From Candidatus Hydrogenedens sp. (lineage in GTDB: Bacteria; Hydrogenedentota; Hydrogenedentia; Hydrogenedentales; CAITNO01), in assembly GCA_012522755.1 (NCBI GenBank), contig JAAYJV010000129.1, positions 1-33,147 on the forward strand: a stretch of DNA of 33,147 nucleotides. The letters are read 5' to 3'. Shown here one piece after another: positions 969 through 28,014 of the stretch. A model generated the notes under the pieces. The model saw nothing but the letters and a program-made list of their open reading frames with translations. It made no database searches and was not told the DNA's origin. Within the stretch, counting starts at the first letter, position 1, and every line of letters starts with the position of its first letter. The position numbers and the translations under genes were made by a program.

Positions 969-1537
969 GTGCCTGAATCTTTAACTACACCTCGTTTCTT
1001 ATTTGTATTTAAGTACTTGCATCAAAGAGCTTTACAACGAGACTTGTACTCATCGCCCGAGGACAGGGGCCAAGTTTGTTTTGTCCACTCTGTCCACTAT
1101 TCGTGCTTGTGCATCTTGCTTTAACCTCTGCCCCTCGCAGATCCGTCCGATCCGACTGATCAGACCAATCCGACCGACTCCCCAGACACTATTAATCCCT
1201 TCAATTCTCTTATATCTTCTGACCCCAACCCCTGCTTCTGTCATACCGTTTTTTTTGCGACTCGGTATCCGCTTCTAAGCATTACCTTAAACATTGAAAA
1301 TAAGAGTGTTTCACTGATTACGACACATACTTTTTCGAAACAGTAATGGAAGTATACGAATAGTAGTATGAATTGATATATCCCCCCGCGATATTTCTAT
1401 TGAATCGTCATGTTGCAGCTTTAATGTTTTTGATTTAAGGTGATGACCTTGTTAAACTGGGTCAGGTAACAATGTCAAATCACTTTGTCAATATCAGATG
1501 AGATCATTTTCAAATTCTGGTGTAAAGGAGACCGTTA
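969..1537. other. Intergenic stretch with degenerate short tandem repeats
   Basis: No convincing gene is seen here; the small open frames look random and lack ribosome binding sites. The stretch holds two copies of TGTCCACT around 1083-1102 and four 9-bp units at 1141-1176. It also holds an inverted repeat TTGTTA/TAACAA at 1449-1472. The part after 1270 is AT-rich like the two genes that follow. I see no clear promoter for the gene at 1538/1667. Confidence 0.6.
1141..1176. repeat. Degenerate 9-bp tandem repeat, four units
   Basis: The units ATCCGTCCG, ATCCGACTG, ATCAGACCA and ATCCGACCG lie head to tail, each differing from a consensus ATCCGACCG by one to three bases. They lie in non-coding DNA between the rRNA terminator and the next gene. 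No function can be read from them. Confidence 0.7.
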
Positions 1538-1666
1538 ATGGAAGATCGCCAGGCATAGATTCAAGAAGCTAAACGACTGGAAAGTGCATATTCATCAGCT
1601 TCTACCAAGGAGGAGCAAGAACAACTCAAAATACGTTATAACGAAATTTGTCAAAGGCTGCAGTCT
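1538..1666 (+). pseudogene. Upstream in-frame coding segment cut by an amber codon
   Basis: A good Shine-Dalgarno sequence (AAAGGAG, 1524-1530) sits 7 nt before the ATG at 1538. The frame reads MEDRQA and then hits TAG at 1556-1558. After it the same frame continues without a stop through a hydrophilic, helix-like stretch (IQEAKRLESAYSS, then KEEQEQLKIRYNEICQRLQ) into the ATG at 1667. The natural product therefore looks like a protein of about 160 residues whose first third is now separated by a nonsense codon. Only ATG, GTG and TTG were considered as restart sites, and none lies between the TAG and 1667. Confidence 0.55.
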
Positions 1667-2020
1667 ATGGATGAATCGTCCAATAGGTCAGACAACGAGA
1701 GTGATATTCAGGATGCATCCGAAACAGAAGACATGGATGAAAAAAAGTCTTTTGGTTTTGGTCATATTGTTGTTGTCCTAATACGGACTGTATGGTCTTT
1801 AAGTATTGGTCTGGTTTTCTTTGTGATTGGTACTGTTTTATATGTTATGTTAGACATTCTGTATCCGAAAAAAGATTACGGTGCCAAGATGTTAACAAAG
1901 TTATATGAAATAGGCAGTCTTGCTTGGCTTGCTCGAATTAATTTTGGCATAAAAGTCAGCTTTGGTGTTGGAGGCAGTGATCTTGAAACTGTAGTTACTA
2001 AACGCAAGAAACAGAAGTAA
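1667..2020 (+). CDS. Small orphan membrane protein (117 aa; start possibly disrupted)
   Basis: I do not recognise the family. The product has an acidic, Ser/Asp-rich N-terminus (residues 1-27), one long hydrophobic segment at about residues 30-58 that should cross the membrane once or twice, then an amphipathic part and a basic tail ending KKRKKQK. There is no ribosome binding site before this ATG. The good one is at 1524-1530, in frame but followed by a TAG (see 1538-1666). Either this ORF is expressed poorly or it is the tail of a broken gene. Base composition is visibly more AT-rich than most of the window. It lies 180 bp before another orphan membrane protein. Confidence 0.55.
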   Translation: MDESSNRSDNESDIQDASETEDMDEKKSFGFGHIVVVLIRTVWSLSIGLVFFVIGTVLYVMLDILYPKKDYGAKMLTKLYEIGSLAWLARINFGIKVSFGVGGSDLETVVTKRKKQK

Positions 2021-3113: not shown

Positions 3114-5279
3114 TTAAAAATGCAGTTCGAAAGAATTCCCTGATGCATCAATGGGCAGCTGCAGCCAGTTTCCATTGGCCTGTGCACGCACTGATTTACC
3201 GCCCACACTCACAGAACGGGGCTGCATACCTGTGGGGATATAAAAGACAGCCACGGCATCTTTCATAAAAGGACCTTCCAGATTACCGGAAAGAACTCTT
3301 TTATTTGGATCCCACTGGACTTTTTTCGCCTGATACAAGCCGAGCATGGGTTCCCCGGAAAGGCCGCAAAACATGGGTTCAGTTGACGCATTCAAGAGGC
3401 CGAGGGTTGTTGCATGAGGAGCCATGGGAAGAGTTCCCTCTGTCAAAGCGGCAATGGCCCCATTATTATCCTGCCAGATCAGGGGTTGAGTATCGGCTCT
3501 GTTGAAGCATTCCAGATCATTCACCTTCCAGGCGGAGGCACCGGAGAATTGCATGATCCCTTCACCCACATTTGGATTGATGTTGATTCCTGCACGGGTC
3601 AGCCAGATAAGGGGAGCCGTACGACAGGGATCCTGCGGCCGGGCACGGTAAGGGGGACGGGCCAGCAGTGCAGCAACAAAGCGTGCGGTCTGTCCTGTGG
3701 GCGCATCAACAAACTGGAGAGGCCCGGGCCACAATTGCAGGGCGACTCTGGTTTCAAAGTCGGGCATGCTGTCCTGGCCGACAAGAAGGCCTACCGGTGC
3801 AATACCGATATCTCCCTCACGGATACGGGCGACAGAAGAAGCGGCGGCCAGCCAGGCATCACGATTCACAGGCTGTGCACTTGCAGCTGCAGGGAGAACG
3901 GTGGCCTTTGTGTCTTGAACCGCTTCCGTAGCCGCAGAGAATGCAGCCCAATCGGCTTCTTCGCGACTGATCCCGAAAGCAAGCAGTACTTCATCAGGGA
4001 TGGTTGACTCTTCAAGAATAAAAAATCCAAATCCTTTTGAGTAGAGGGTGCGTATTCTATCTCGAACAGCGGCTCTTCCTTCAGGTACACAGGGATTATT
4101 CCACAGCTGCCCGTCAGCACTCTTAGCTGTATGGTTGCCACCGCCTTTGGCCAGAAGAGCGTCAAGCGTAATGCCCGGGATTGTTCCAGCGGCTTGAAGT
4201 GCGGAAGCGGCTTCGCCCATATTTCTGGGATAGAGGGGGGAGCCGCCATCGCCGGAACCGGGTTTGCTTTCCCAGTTGTTGGGGATCAAGGCATGACTGA
4301 TACCCAGAGATGCAGCATTGGCGGCCTGGGCTTTGAGCCTGGTGAGTCCAGCCGTATCGGAAACGGTGACCCAGGCTCTGGGCTGGTCAATGCTGACGGC
4401 TTCTTTGCAGAAATGGTAGAGGAGATAAGAATATTGGGTATCCTGTTGTGCGGCACCTGCACCCATGCTCAACCACAGAGGATCAGCCTCCAGAGTCTCT
4501 CCCGGCGCAAGTGTTTTACCCGGTGAGAAATCGCTTTCAATGCGACCGTACCAGCTTCCGCTTTCGCGCCAGGAACTGATTCCCGATGCTGCTTTCCCGC
4601 GGGGGATGAGTGCCATATTGATGATAATGTCACGTCCCTGATCAAAAATGCGCAAGGAAGAGGCATTGCCTTCGGGTGAAAACACAGGACGACCCCCGCG
4701 GAATAAGGTGTTGCAGCTTCCTATTTCAGCCTGCTCACTCAAGCCCTGCAAACTTCCGGAAGGAATATCCACAATGGTGATTTTTTTGATGCCCACAGGG
4801 GCTTCACTGATGTTTTTCACTTTTACTGTCAGCAGCAGAAAGTTCCATTGTTTGACTGTTGTGATCGCATGTTCAACGGCCAATCCTTCCAGAGGCATGA
4901 ACTGAACAGCATAGTGTGTTCCCTCGCCGGCTGCTTCCCAGGAGGCCGGCCCCCGGTCCAAAATGGTTTCTCCCGCTGCGCCGAACATGTCATTGGTCAA
5001 TACGCGTCCATCGCTGAGCTCAATGGAAAAAGTGACTTCTTTTAAAATAAGATCAGGATTCAAGCGTGCCTGTTCACTGTCTTCCTGAAAGATCTTGATG
5101 CGCCACTCGCCATTGTCCTTGGCATAGTCCAGCCGTAGATCTCCTCCGCTGAAAGTATAATGTTCCCGCAGTGTCCAGGGAAGTTTTTCCTGAGGAGCAG
5201 CAAAAGCTCCCGGAAAAATCATCCCGATCACCAGGAGAAAGAGCAACGATGCACCAAAAGAATGTCTGACAGAAAGCAT
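3114..5279 (-). CDS. Secreted glycosidase-like protein (GH36/melibiase-like layout), specificity unknown
   Basis: The chosen start gives 721 residues with a clear signal peptide (MLSVRHSFGASLLFLLVIGM, cleavage near AFA-AP, residue 28). An AAGGA ribosome binding site lies 9 nt before it; the longer frame to 5327 lacks this. Residues 30-290 look like a large beta-sandwich of the kind that precedes clan-D glycoside hydrolase barrels. Residues 300-590 read like a (beta/alpha)8 barrel, and 610-721 like a C-terminal beta domain. At the strand where GH36-type enzymes carry the nucleophile Asp, the sequence reads GFGFFILEES, so the usual K-x-D is absent. The fold assignment is inference from layout; substrate and activity cannot be stated. 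It appears to be transcribed alone, with a terminator after it. Confidence 0.75.
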   Translation of the reverse strand: MLSVRHSFGASLLFLLVIGMIFPGAFAAPQEKLPWTLREHYTFSGGDLRLDYAKDNGEWRIKIFQEDSEQARLNPDLILKEVTFSIELSDGRVLTNDMFGAAGETILDRGPASWEAAGEGTHYAVQFMPLEGLAVEHAITTVKQWNFLLLTVKVKNISEAPVGIKKITIVDIPSGSLQGLSEQAEIGSCNTLFRGGRPVFSPEGNASSLRIFDQGRDIIINMALIPRGKAASGISSWRESGSWYGRIESDFSPGKTLAPGETLEADPLWLSMGAGAAQQDTQYSYLLYHFCKEAVSIDQPRAWVTVSDTAGLTRLKAQAANAASLGISHALIPNNWESKPGSGDGGSPLYPRNMGEAASALQAAGTIPGITLDALLAKGGGNHTAKSADGQLWNNPCVPEGRAAVRDRIRTLYSKGFGFFILEESTIPDEVLLAFGISREEADWAAFSAATEAVQDTKATVLPAAASAQPVNRDAWLAAASSVARIREGDIGIAPVGLLVGQDSMPDFETRVALQLWPGPLQFVDAPTGQTARFVAALLARPPYRARPQDPCRTAPLIWLTRAGININPNVGEGIMQFSGASAWKVNDLECFNRADTQPLIWQDNNGAIAALTEGTLPMAPHATTLGLLNASTEPMFCGLSGEPMLGLYQAKKVQWDPNKRVLSGNLEGPFMKDAVAVFYIPTGMQPRSVSVGGKSVRAQANGNWLQLPIDASGNSFELHF

Positions 5280-5748
5280 GGAAAATTCCTTATACCTGAG
5301 GAGTAAGGGTTCATGGGAATGCCACAACAGTCAAGGATCACAAAGATCAGTTTGCAGGCGTGATTAGTATACTGAAATAGGGGCTTATGGGCAACTCCAA
5401 GCCTTTTCTTTCGTTTTTCAAGCTTGCGCCCACGGTACTGAAGACGGATAAATCAAAGCCGGGCCAATACGGATTTCCAACAATAGAGTACATCCTTCCC
5501 ATGTTGAACAATTCAAGAGTGCAAAGTCTTCCTTTTTGTTGCAGTTGCCTGGCCGTGTCAGATGAGTCTGAATGGAAGCGGGGGTTATCAGCAAGGCACT
5601 GATGCCAGAGAGGGGAATGAAGGAGCAGGCTGATCAGGCTGAAAAGAGCTGCTGTCTTTTGTGTTTCCGGCCTGGTATCTCTGTGCAGGCCCATCACTCC
5701 CGCCTCCAGCAGAAAGGCTCATCCGGTAAATTTTACTGAGACCTTTCT
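5280..5748. other. Intergenic stretch between divergent genes; no confident gene
   Basis: This holds the 5' region of the minus-strand secreted protein and the upstream region of the plus-strand yceD operon. A minus-strand frame of 116 codons (5347-5697) is open but has no ribosome binding site, no recognisable motif and a composition unlike the neighbours, so it is not called a gene. Its part around 5400-5560 reads smoothly on both strands and may be a dispersed genomic repeat. No second copy occurs in this window. Confidence 0.5.
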
Positions 5749-5778: not shown

Positions 5779-5813
5779 AGACTATATTGCGCCACTGGAA
5801 AGAATGCCTTTGT

Positions 5814-6413
5814 ATGAACATCCTGACAATTCCAATTTCCAGCATCAGTGTCGACGGCTATGAGTATGAGGAATGCACCCCTGTAGAATCCATTCAACCG
5901 CCTGATACCCAGGCTGTAGCTGTGGATACAGTGAGTGTTTCCGGCAGATTTACAAAATTTCGTGACACTTACACCTTTCGCGGCATAGTGAATGGCACTT
6001 ATCACGGAACATGCTGCCAGTGCCTGGCTTCAGCCGCCGTCCCTTTTTCTGTTCAAGTCCGTTGGATCTTTGAAGAGACCTCCGGAAGTGTGCTCAGAGA
6101 AATCAGCCGCACAGAAGAAGAGTCGGAGTATCTTTCTCCGGAACAAGTTGAAGAGTATTTTTCAAAGTCAGCTCAGGAACGTGTCATCAATCTGGCTCCC
6201 TATGTGTGGGAGGAGGTTGTATTTGCCGAACCATACACCTTTGTATGCAGTGAAGAATGCAAAGGTATTTGCGGCCATTGCGGCGCCAATTTGAATAAGC
6301 ATCAATGCGGCTGTGAAGAGAAAAAAGCATCGCAGCAAAGAATAGATAACCCGGGACTCGCAGCGCTGGCAAAATTTTACCCGCAGCTGGCTCCCGACAA
6401 GGATAAGGAGTAG
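5814..6413 (+). CDS. yceD: YceD/DUF177 family protein
   Basis: This 199-residue protein belongs to the YceD/DUF177 family, which is typically encoded just before rpmF; a role linked to large-subunit rRNA or ribosome biogenesis has been proposed. The C-terminal cysteine cluster (VCSEECKGICGHCGANLN, followed by CGC) is the family's hallmark and looks like a metal-binding knuckle. The ATG at 5814 is chosen because GGAAAG lies upstream at a usable distance and the more upstream TTG sits at the predicted transcription start. It ends with TAG, 6 bp before the rpmF ATG, so the two are translated from one message. Confidence 0.9.
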   Translation: MNILTIPISSISVDGYEYEECTPVESIQPPDTQAVAVDTVSVSGRFTKFRDTYTFRGIVNGTYHGTCCQCLASAAVPFSVQVRWIFEETSGSVLREISRTEEESEYLSPEQVEEYFSKSAQERVINLAPYVWEEVVFAEPYTFVCSEECKGICGHCGANLNKHQCGCEEKKASQQRIDNPGLAALAKFYPQLAPDKDKE

Positions 6414-24390: not shown

Positions 24391-27300
24391 CTAAATATAG
24401 CGTGCTTCCGGATGGAAGGAGATGGCGGCTCCTGTTGTGCCTGTGGGCAGGAATTCACCTGACTCCGCCACCTGAACACCCAGAAGCTTCTCACCATCCA
24501 CAAGTTCATGGATGACACCGTTCAACAGAATATCTTTCAGACCTGGATAGCCCGGAGACCAGCGTTGCCCGCATTTTTCAGGCACACCAACCAGTTCACG
24601 GGCAATGGCATGGAGATAATCAGCCATATCCTCGGCAATACGGTTGGAGAGTCCCTGAAGAAAAAGAGCGGACTCATAGTCATCCTTGTTCTTGAAATCT
24701 TCAATCACCGCTTCCACCTGGGGGCCGGCCGTGGTGAGTTGAATTCCAATGACATCAGGGTGACCGTCTGACTTTTCCGAAAAATACTGAGCACCGGAGA
24801 CCAGATCTTCATTACCCCCGCCGATAACGACGGTAAAGGGCATGCGTGCCAGCTCCTTTTTCATATTTTCAGGATCGAGAATAACAACGCTGTCTTCTTC
24901 ACGATAACAGGGGAAAAGTCCCAGAGCCCCTTGAGGAAGGAGCCATCCTTTTTCCGTGGCCTCGTCCACCCAGCGACTCAACAGGGCTTCCAGTTCGTCC
25001 TCACTCTGACCGAAACGGCTCCAGCCCGAGGGGCCGCCAAAACGCCAGTTCAGGGAAAAGAGCGTCTGTCGATCCAGATGGGGCGCAAATTCCGTCAGAG
25101 GATACTGGTATACCCGATGTCTGAAAAGAGTTATGGAGTCATCACGCTGAATGGGGTTGATGACCCGGCGCGGGAGCGTGGCGAATAATCCCGCTTCCAA
25201 TTCCTGACGCTTCTGAGCCTGCTTGAATTTACGGATCAGATTCTGGCGGTTGCTTTCATAATAGGCATGACCGGTGTTCTCGTCCACAATTTTATTCATC
25301 ACATTGACGCCGTCCATGGCCGTTCGACAATAGAAGACGGAACCGGTCATCTCTTCAGGATCATCCTGACCGGCAAGAGAAACATAGGCCGCATGGCGAT
25401 CACTTACAGGGGCACCACCCACAAGAATAGGCAAAGAGACTCCCTGTTCTTTCATCATTTTGGAAACAGTGATCATGTGATTGGAGGTCTGGACGAGAAG
25501 GGCGGACATGCCGATGGCATCGGCCTTGTGTTCCAGTGCCGTGTCAATATATTGCTGCAAAGGTGTCATGACGCCCAGATCAATGACCTTGTATCCGTAG
25601 TTTTCCAGAAGTGTCCGGGCCAGGTCTTTTCCAATGGAGTGAACATCCTGATAGACCGTACCCAGCACGACGACCCCTTTGTGGCGTTTTTCGCTCGCCT
25701 GTTCCTGCTTCTGATGATTCTGCAGGTAGGCTTCAATAAAGCCCATGACCTGACGCATCACATCGGCCGAGCGCAGCAGATGGGGGAGAGAGACTTCGCC
25801 ACGGGCAAAACCGTCGCCCAGTTCTTTCATGGCCGCCATGAGCCGCTGGTTCACAAAGTCCAGCGGTTCCCAGCGTTGCAGAATATCCTGCATCTGCAAG
25901 ACGATTCTGTCTTCATAACGGTACTGATGTCCCTGGAATTCAAAGCTTCCGGGGATGCGTTCCTTGAATCCGTCTTTGATCTTTTCCGTGATGGAACTTT
26001 CATTATCCAGGCTGTCATAGTTGACGACCTCTTTTTTGGGGCCGCCCTTTTTGCTTTCCGCAATACCTTCCAGAGTATCGAAAGCTTCCATGTCATGATC
26101 CAGAATGATGCGTTTCGCCAATGCGTAATCGTCCGGATCCAGATCAGAGACAAAGAGATAATGGTTGGGGTTGATGATGGCGGCATCCAGGCCTTTTTTC
26201 CTGGCCTCATCAAGAAAGACGGAAGTAAGAACCAGGCGCATATAGGGTTTCGCCGCCAGTCCGTTGGTCAGATTGCCCACACCCAGAATGGTCTGCACAT
26301 GCGGATAATCTTCCTTGACCAGGCGTATTCCTTCCAGAGTTTCCAGAGCAAAGTTCTGGCCCGCTTCACTTTCCGCGCCAATGGGAAAGACATTGACATC
26401 AACAAAGATCCGGTCTTCGGTAATGCCGTATTTTTCTCTGGCCCGTTCAATGATCTTTGAGGCCAGTTCCCGTTTTTCTTCCGCTGTGGCTCCCGGTCCT
26501 TTGGGTCCAGTGCACAATGCCACGAACACGGGGTCATGGCCCAGGGTCGCTTCTATGACCTCATCCATCTTGAGCAGCCCCGGGGCACTTTCTTCGAAGG
26601 AAATGGAGTTCAGAATGGGACGGCCTGGATAGCATTTTACCGCTGCCGCCAAAGCATCGGGCTGAAAGGAGTCGAGACACATGGCCGCCTGGAAATCCAC
26701 GGTCTGCTGATGGGCCACTTCACTGAGCACATCCACTGTATTGACCTGATTCGAATCCATGCACACATCAATGACGGGGCATCCCAGTTCCAGAACCTGC
26801 TCACGGACCACCTCTTCCAGGATCTCGTGGCGGATACCCTCATCATTCTCCACAGCATCACGCACTTTTTTGGAGCCCCGGATATTGAGTCTTTCACCGA
26901 AACGGATGAGATTGTCGCCGCCGTCCAGAAGGATGGCTTTTTGAGGCCCCGAAACATAAAGACCCGGTGCCGGGCTGCGTGGGGTGAGGGGCGTGTTGCG
27001 CAGCAATTCCGTTGTGAGGGCGATGTGTTCCGGTGTTGTCCCGCAGCAGCCGCCCACAACAGTCACGCCATATTCACGGATGAAGCGCTCCATACAGGCG
27101 GCGAAGTCTTCCGGTGAAAAGCGGAATACGGTCTTCCCGTTTTCGCTCACAGGCAGGCCCGCATTGGGGATGACGGAAATGGGCAGGGGCGAAAACTGGG
27201 AGAGCTTTTCCACAGTCTTTTCCATGAGATCGGGACCGATGGAACAGTTGATGCCGAAAACATCAATGCCCGTGCCCTGCATGGTGACCAGGGCGGCATG

Positions 27301-28014
27301 AATGTCGGTGTTGAAAATCTGCATGCGACTGAAAGCGTCAACAGTCACCTGCGCCATGATGGGCAGTTCAACAGAACGTTCCTTCATGGCACTTTTCACA
27401 CCGAAGACACCGGCCTTCAGCTCAAGAATATCCTGCTGGGTCTCAAAAAGGAATACATCAATTCCGCCATCAATCAGCCCCAGAGCCTGGGCGTGAAAGT
27501 TTGCCGAGATCTCATCAAATGTGGCCCGCCGCAGGTTCGCCGTCGTTGCTGAGACCACATGATTGGAAGGACCCATGGAGCCGATGATGAAGAGGGGACG
27601 TCCCGCTTTGTCTGAAGTGCTGTTGTACAGGTCCCGGGCTTCGCAGGCTGTTTCCGCGGCGCGCTTGCTCAGATGATACGCCATCTCCTCTATGGTCAGA
27701 TCCTGGAGGCGGATCCCGTCGGGGATGGCCGTGAAAGCGCTGGTTTCAAGTTTGGAGAAATCATATTCTGCCAGTCGCAAAGGAGAAGCGCCGAAGGAGT
27801 TGGTTTCCGCCGCATCAGCACCGGCTTCAAAAAAAGCCAGATGAATATCGCGCACCGCTTCGGGCTGTGAAAAGCAGAGCAGATCAACGAGCATTTTGAA
27901 ATCGGAGCCGCCAAAGGCACTTTCATCCAGATCCAGACCTTGTATCATGGTACCCATGGCGCCATCCAGACAAAAAGGACGCTCGTTGATTCGTTTGAGA
28001 AAAGCCTTTTTCAT
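24391..28014 (-). CDS. metH: Cobalamin-dependent methionine synthase MetH
   Basis: MetH moves a methyl group from 5-methyltetrahydrofolate to homocysteine through cob(I)alamin. All modules are present in 1207 residues. These are the homocysteine domain with zinc ligands C257 (GINCS) and C323-C324 (GGCCGTTP), the pterin domain from about 366 (RFGERLNIRGSKK), and the B12 cap and B12 domains with D790-x-H792-x2-G795 (DVHSIG). The C-terminal SAM-dependent reactivation domain has RWSPGYPGL. Length is near that of E. coli MetH. The ATG at 28014 has TAGGGA about 8 nt upstream. The gene ends in TAG. A hairpin separates it from the upstream cystathionine gene. No SAM or cobalamin riboswitch is recognisable in the short leader. 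Confidence 0.97.
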   Translation of the reverse strand: MKKAFLKRINERPFCLDGAMGTMIQGLDLDESAFGGSDFKMLVDLLCFSQPEAVRDIHLAFFEAGADAAETNSFGASPLRLAEYDFSKLETSAFTAIPDGIRLQDLTIEEMAYHLSKRAAETACEARDLYNSTSDKAGRPLFIIGSMGPSNHVVSATTANLRRATFDEISANFHAQALGLIDGGIDVFLFETQQDILELKAGVFGVKSAMKERSVELPIMAQVTVDAFSRMQIFNTDIHAALVTMQGTGIDVFGINCSIGPDLMEKTVEKLSQFSPLPISVIPNAGLPVSENGKTVFRFSPEDFAACMERFIREYGVTVVGGCCGTTPEHIALTTELLRNTPLTPRSPAPGLYVSGPQKAILLDGGDNLIRFGERLNIRGSKKVRDAVENDEGIRHEILEEVVREQVLELGCPVIDVCMDSNQVNTVDVLSEVAHQQTVDFQAAMCLDSFQPDALAAAVKCYPGRPILNSISFEESAPGLLKMDEVIEATLGHDPVFVALCTGPKGPGATAEEKRELASKIIERAREKYGITEDRIFVDVNVFPIGAESEAGQNFALETLEGIRLVKEDYPHVQTILGVGNLTNGLAAKPYMRLVLTSVFLDEARKKGLDAAIINPNHYLFVSDLDPDDYALAKRIILDHDMEAFDTLEGIAESKKGGPKKEVVNYDSLDNESSITEKIKDGFKERIPGSFEFQGHQYRYEDRIVLQMQDILQRWEPLDFVNQRLMAAMKELGDGFARGEVSLPHLLRSADVMRQVMGFIEAYLQNHQKQEQASEKRHKGVVVLGTVYQDVHSIGKDLARTLLENYGYKVIDLGVMTPLQQYIDTALEHKADAIGMSALLVQTSNHMITVSKMMKEQGVSLPILVGGAPVSDRHAAYVSLAGQDDPEEMTGSVFYCRTAMDGVNVMNKIVDENTGHAYYESNRQNLIRKFKQAQKRQELEAGLFATLPRRVINPIQRDDSITLFRHRVYQYPLTEFAPHLDRQTLFSLNWRFGGPSGWSRFGQSEDELEALLSRWVDEATEKGWLLPQGALGLFPCYREEDSVVILDPENMKKELARMPFTVVIGGGNEDLVSGAQYFSEKSDGHPDVIGIQLTTAGPQVEAVIEDFKNKDDYESALFLQGLSNRIAEDMADYLHAIARELVGVPEKCGQRWSPGYPGLKDILLNGVIHELVDGEKLLGVQVAESGEFLPTGTTGAAISFHPEARYI

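Follow-up and report, generated by a model that had tools for sequence, protein, structure and literature searches.

A probable nonsense mutation at codon 7 of an accessory small membrane protein gene in Candidatus Hydrogenedens sp.

The window analysed here, a stretch of 33,147 nucleotides that constitutes one contig of a Candidatus Hydrogenedens sp. assembly (4.0 Mb, 199 contigs, 95% complete), carries a gene of 160 codons plus stop, the seventh codon of which is TAG. Judging from sequence comparisons, this TAG is probably a nonsense mutation in an accessory, lineage-restricted gene for a small membrane protein. We infer each of the three parts of this account: the organism itself has this base, the substitution is of recent date and the gene is no longer expressed. 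An ordinary mutation is the simplest reading, in preference to a novel use of the genetic code, and nothing sets this case apart. On its own, one premature stop in an accessory gene of restricted distribution matters little. The case does provide a negative result on amber recoding for this genome; beyond that, it only adds one example among many to the question of whether early in-frame stops are tolerated in bacteria.

The interrupted frame and its homologues

In agreement with the preliminary description of this DNA, a strong Shine-Dalgarno sequence and an ATG open a frame that meets TAG at 1556-1558 (the window reads ATG-GAA-GAT-CGC-CAG-GCA-TAG-ATT from the start). The features of the frame are the following.

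1524..1530, + strand: Shine-Dalgarno-like AAAGGAG, 7 nt 5' of ATG 1538, read in the sequence
1538..1555, + strand: ATG and codons 2-6 (MEDRQA), coding ahead of the stop; relatives have MEDRKS in the same place
1556..1558, + strand: in-frame TAG, codon 7, read in the sequence; Leu in relatives
1559..2020, + strand: remainder of the frame, 153 sense codons and TAA (2018-2020); 53% identity to the G013/G016 protein, dN/dS about 0.23
1559..2020, predicted layout: helical hairpin at the N-terminus, acidic linker, membrane (hydrophobic) helices and basic tail
1653..1657, + strand: AAAGG, weak ribosome-site-like sequence, putative restart site 9 nt 5' of ATG 1667
1667..1669, + strand: ATG, Met44, the first in-frame ATG/GTG/TTG past the TAG; product of 117 aa

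The membrane helices are predicted from the sequence of the encoded protein. Apart from the TAG at 1556-1558, the interior of the frame has no stop; of the 154 further open codons reported earlier, 153 are sense codons and the last is the TAA itself. At the local base composition, the chance of a 153-codon open run is about 6e-6 per place. When the family profile was compared with this genome, the whole match was interrupted by one stop, the TAG. Codon usage was scored against a reference of 237 gene calls (mean 0.199 bits per codon, 5% point about 0). Codons 44-160 scored 0.124 and codons 8-43 scored 0.016 bits per codon, values under the mean and inside the range of the gene calls.

The downstream protein was searched against 60 related genomes and matched in three, its own included. 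The other two, G013 and G016 (Candidatus Hydrogenedentota), encode a protein 53% identical over residues 2-152, and the alignment to G013 has a single gap, one codon long. Since G013 and G016 encode the same protein with almost the same DNA sequence, they count as one independent full-length homologue. A profile search of the phylum gave matches in 4 of 68 genomes, again including its own; the fourth, in G003, is confined to the first 64 positions, corresponding to the N-terminal module. The G003 protein has 231 aa, with this module in common and a different C-terminal part. The module, a predicted helical hairpin of about 45 aa (E-A-K ... R-Y-x-E-I), is found at 1559-1672 of the window and within the 231-aa protein of G003 (L055:1501-2196), which directly precedes a DUF1232 protein.

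G013 and G016 both read ATG-ATG-ATG-GAA-GAC-CGG-AAG-TCA-TTG-ATG, with AAAGGA at the same ribosome-site position as in the window. The Asp and Arg codons of MEDR differ between the window and these relatives only by silent third-base changes (ATG GAA GAY CGN). Because the relatives have the same ATG and ribosome site and differ by silent changes, the frame upstream of the TAG is truly coding. Codon 7, at which the preliminary description had proposed to compare homologues, encodes Leu in the relatives: TTG in G013 and G016, numbered from the third ATG of their run, and CTT in G003, numbered from its own ATG. One base separates TAG from the TTG of the nearest relatives, and TAG occupies this position in one of the four homologues, that of the window. 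Another view raised in the preliminary description, a non-coding upstream frame with the gene starting at 1667, is ruled out by homologues that start at the equivalent of 1538. They have Phe at the position of Met44, and none among the relatives found starts at 1667.

TAG decoding in this genome

By each test made, TAG is an ordinary stop in this genome. It ends 4 of the 20 genes of the window; three of these, metH (24391-28014), a yceD-like gene (5787-6413) and the gene at 2201-2980, end as previously described. In a 373-kb sample composed of the window and 17 sampled stretches, TAG ends 24 of 237 gene calls. Release factor 1 (RF1) is present (509 bits, cut-off 423). None of the 45 tRNAs of the assembly, all read by ARAGORN, has the anticodon CTA (CUA), and the search for a suppressor or pyrrolysine tRNA suggested earlier thus came back negative for this set; the set is incomplete, with tRNA-Phe, tRNA-Ile(GAT) and tRNA-Ala(TGC) also not found in an assembly that is about 95% complete, so that the absence of CUA is not absolute. 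The pyrrolysyl-tRNA synthetase (PylS) family had a sole match, scoring 23.9 bits where the cut-off is 178.15. The matching 516-aa frame, located near a release-factor-like gene on the same contig, is likely a lysyl-tRNA synthetase. Among stops lying between long same-frame open runs, TAG accounted for 11 of 142, compared with 2740 of 22662 stops overall, and hence is not enriched; this count is score-free and, because it pools shadow frames with real genes, serves only to compare stop types.

Genome-wide reassignment of TAG was rejected based on these gene ends and the retention of RF1. Pyrrolysine or other amber recoding was likewise rejected, considering the tRNA and PylS results and the Leu in relatives, and the earlier judgement that wholesale recoding is unlikely is borne out by the same data. 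The only likeness to pyrrolysine (PylT/PylS) systems is the in-frame TAG itself; here, by contrast, there is no PylS over the cut-off and no CUA tRNA, the gene lies outside the families searched and the relatives have Leu.

Selection on the frame and age of the stop

Compared with G013, the whole frame has dN of 0.31 and dS of 1.36, a ratio of about 0.23; by part, dN/dS is about 0.18 over codons 8-43 and about 0.25 from codon 44 onward, all of these values being rough with dS near saturation. Pairwise dN/dS reflects the long common history of the two sequences rather than the time since the stop arose, and cannot date the TAG. Since the downstream frame looks conserved, the stop is probably young relative to the divergence from G013, or else the base is wrong.

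We propose that a nonsense substitution turned codon 7, Leu in the relatives and TTG in the nearest ones, into TAG. The strong ribosome site would recruit ribosomes that terminate at the TAG by means of RF1, yielding a six-residue peptide. The full protein would then not be made, or only at trace level, and at most a 117-residue form devoid of the N-terminal helical hairpin might be produced via weak restart at 1667. The case resembles bacterial pseudogenes formed by a single nonsense substitution, which likewise have one premature stop, a conserved frame, a sense codon in relatives and an accessory gene. No difference from such pseudogenes was detected, provided that the TAG is a real mutation and not an assembly error.

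Alternative explanations

The preliminary description had offered a nonsense mutation, readthrough and a sequence error as explanations. The nonsense mutation is the best supported of these, even though there is only one independent full-length homologue and continued use through restart or readthrough would likewise leave the frame intact past the stop. A consensus error or a collapsed strain variant, in which case a sense codon and an intact gene would be present in the organism or in most of the population, is possible though unlikely. The assembly is fragmented (199 contigs), the gene is close (1.5 kb) to a contig end that falls within a 23S rRNA gene, a repeat-prone place, and a single base separates TAG from the codon of the nearest relatives in an otherwise clean frame. 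On the other hand, an unsystematic reading of the window showed no second broken gene, and a consensus built from short reads rarely contains isolated base errors. Nonsense substitutions in bacterial genes are described as relatively common in PMC7918605. An error is less likely than an ordinary recent mutation.

It is also rather improbable that the gene persists as a 117-aa protein starting at Met44 and keeping the hydrophobic helices and the basic tail. Such a protein would be consistent with ATG 1667 and the AAAGG 9 nt upstream of it, with the coding-like usage of codons 44-160 and with the low dN/dS from codon 44 on. However, Met44 is not an ancestral start, because the relatives have Phe at this position, and dN/dS is low over codons 8-43 as well. 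Moreover, the product would lose residues 1-43, which comprise the best-predicted segment of the structural model and the module in common with the G003 protein. The AlphaFold2 model of the relative (whole-model pLDDT of 62) is confident only for approximately residues 1-48, where it has two helices, 2-20 and 24-49; pLDDT is 85-93 in blocks over residues 1-40 and 92-93 in those over residues 11-40.

Programmed or tolerated readthrough, or a restart at AUU after the TAG, would provide some near-full-length protein while keeping expression low. This is very unlikely. Conservation of the frame past the stop would fit readthrough, and Belinky et al. 2021 (PMC7918605) report in-frame stops with dN/dS under 1 as widespread in bacterial genes. 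Yet the assembly has no CUA tRNA and does have RF1, TAG is absent from every other relative found, and the RNA near the stop has no unusual structure, its folding around the TAG being no stronger than that of shuffled sequences (z of +1.4 and +0.6). As for restart, AUU is a rare and weak start codon. An efficient stop-start junction is not formed, because the TAG is followed by ATT where G013 and G016, the nearest relatives, have ATG; with the ribosome site 28 nt away, an AUU start right after the TAG was retained as a weak option only. There is equally little reason to expect that the early TAG serves as a tolerated expression damper, whereby most ribosomes would stop after six codons, readthrough or restart would supply little membrane protein and purifying selection would continue. 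Like the in-frame stops of Belinky et al. 2021 (PMC7918605), this TAG lies inside a frame of low dN/dS; those stops, according to that article, can be common to several species, whereas the present one occurs in one genome only.

Distribution and genomic neighbourhood

Within the family, the gene is present in 4 of 17 genomes, its own included, one of the four having the N-terminal module only. It was not found in G001 (96% complete), the only same-genus genome compared. The gene is, by its distribution, dispensable and accessory, because it occurs in 4 of 68 genomes of the phylum and was not found in this same-genus genome. The gene at 3114-5327 of the window, a neighbour of the broken gene, is matched at 78% identity in G001, and the 1.5 kb between that match and the contig end contain neither the broken gene nor the 2201-2980 gene. 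With both genes missing beside the neighbour in G001, the slot looks variable. For the rRNA side, G001 gave no 5S rRNA match to compare. In G013 and G016, the gene is flanked on one side by a gene that we take, from its sequence, to be aldolase-like and on the other by one whose VWA-type match stays under the Pfam cut-off; in view of these flanks, the gene has no fixed neighbourhood.

Neither the broken-gene protein nor its full-length relative matched any Pfam or NCBIfam family over the cut-off, and a PDB sequence search gave no match for the protein. A mobile-element origin was considered and rejected: the protein has no match in plasmids, phages or viral contigs, and a 25-base exact pattern found nothing in viral contigs.

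The 2201-2980 gene encodes a 259-aa hydrophobic protein without a Pfam or NCBIfam family over the cut-off. It is matched in 3 of 17 family genomes, including its own, and is also accessory. An imperfect 9-bp tandem repeat, GATCCGACC, is present in 4.2 copies at 1140-1177 of the window, in the interval that separates the rRNA genes from the broken gene. Past the 5S rRNA gene, at 935-963, a 12-pair hairpin is followed by a run of T (0.9 such sites are expected by chance); from its sequence and position, it is likely the terminator of the rRNA operon.
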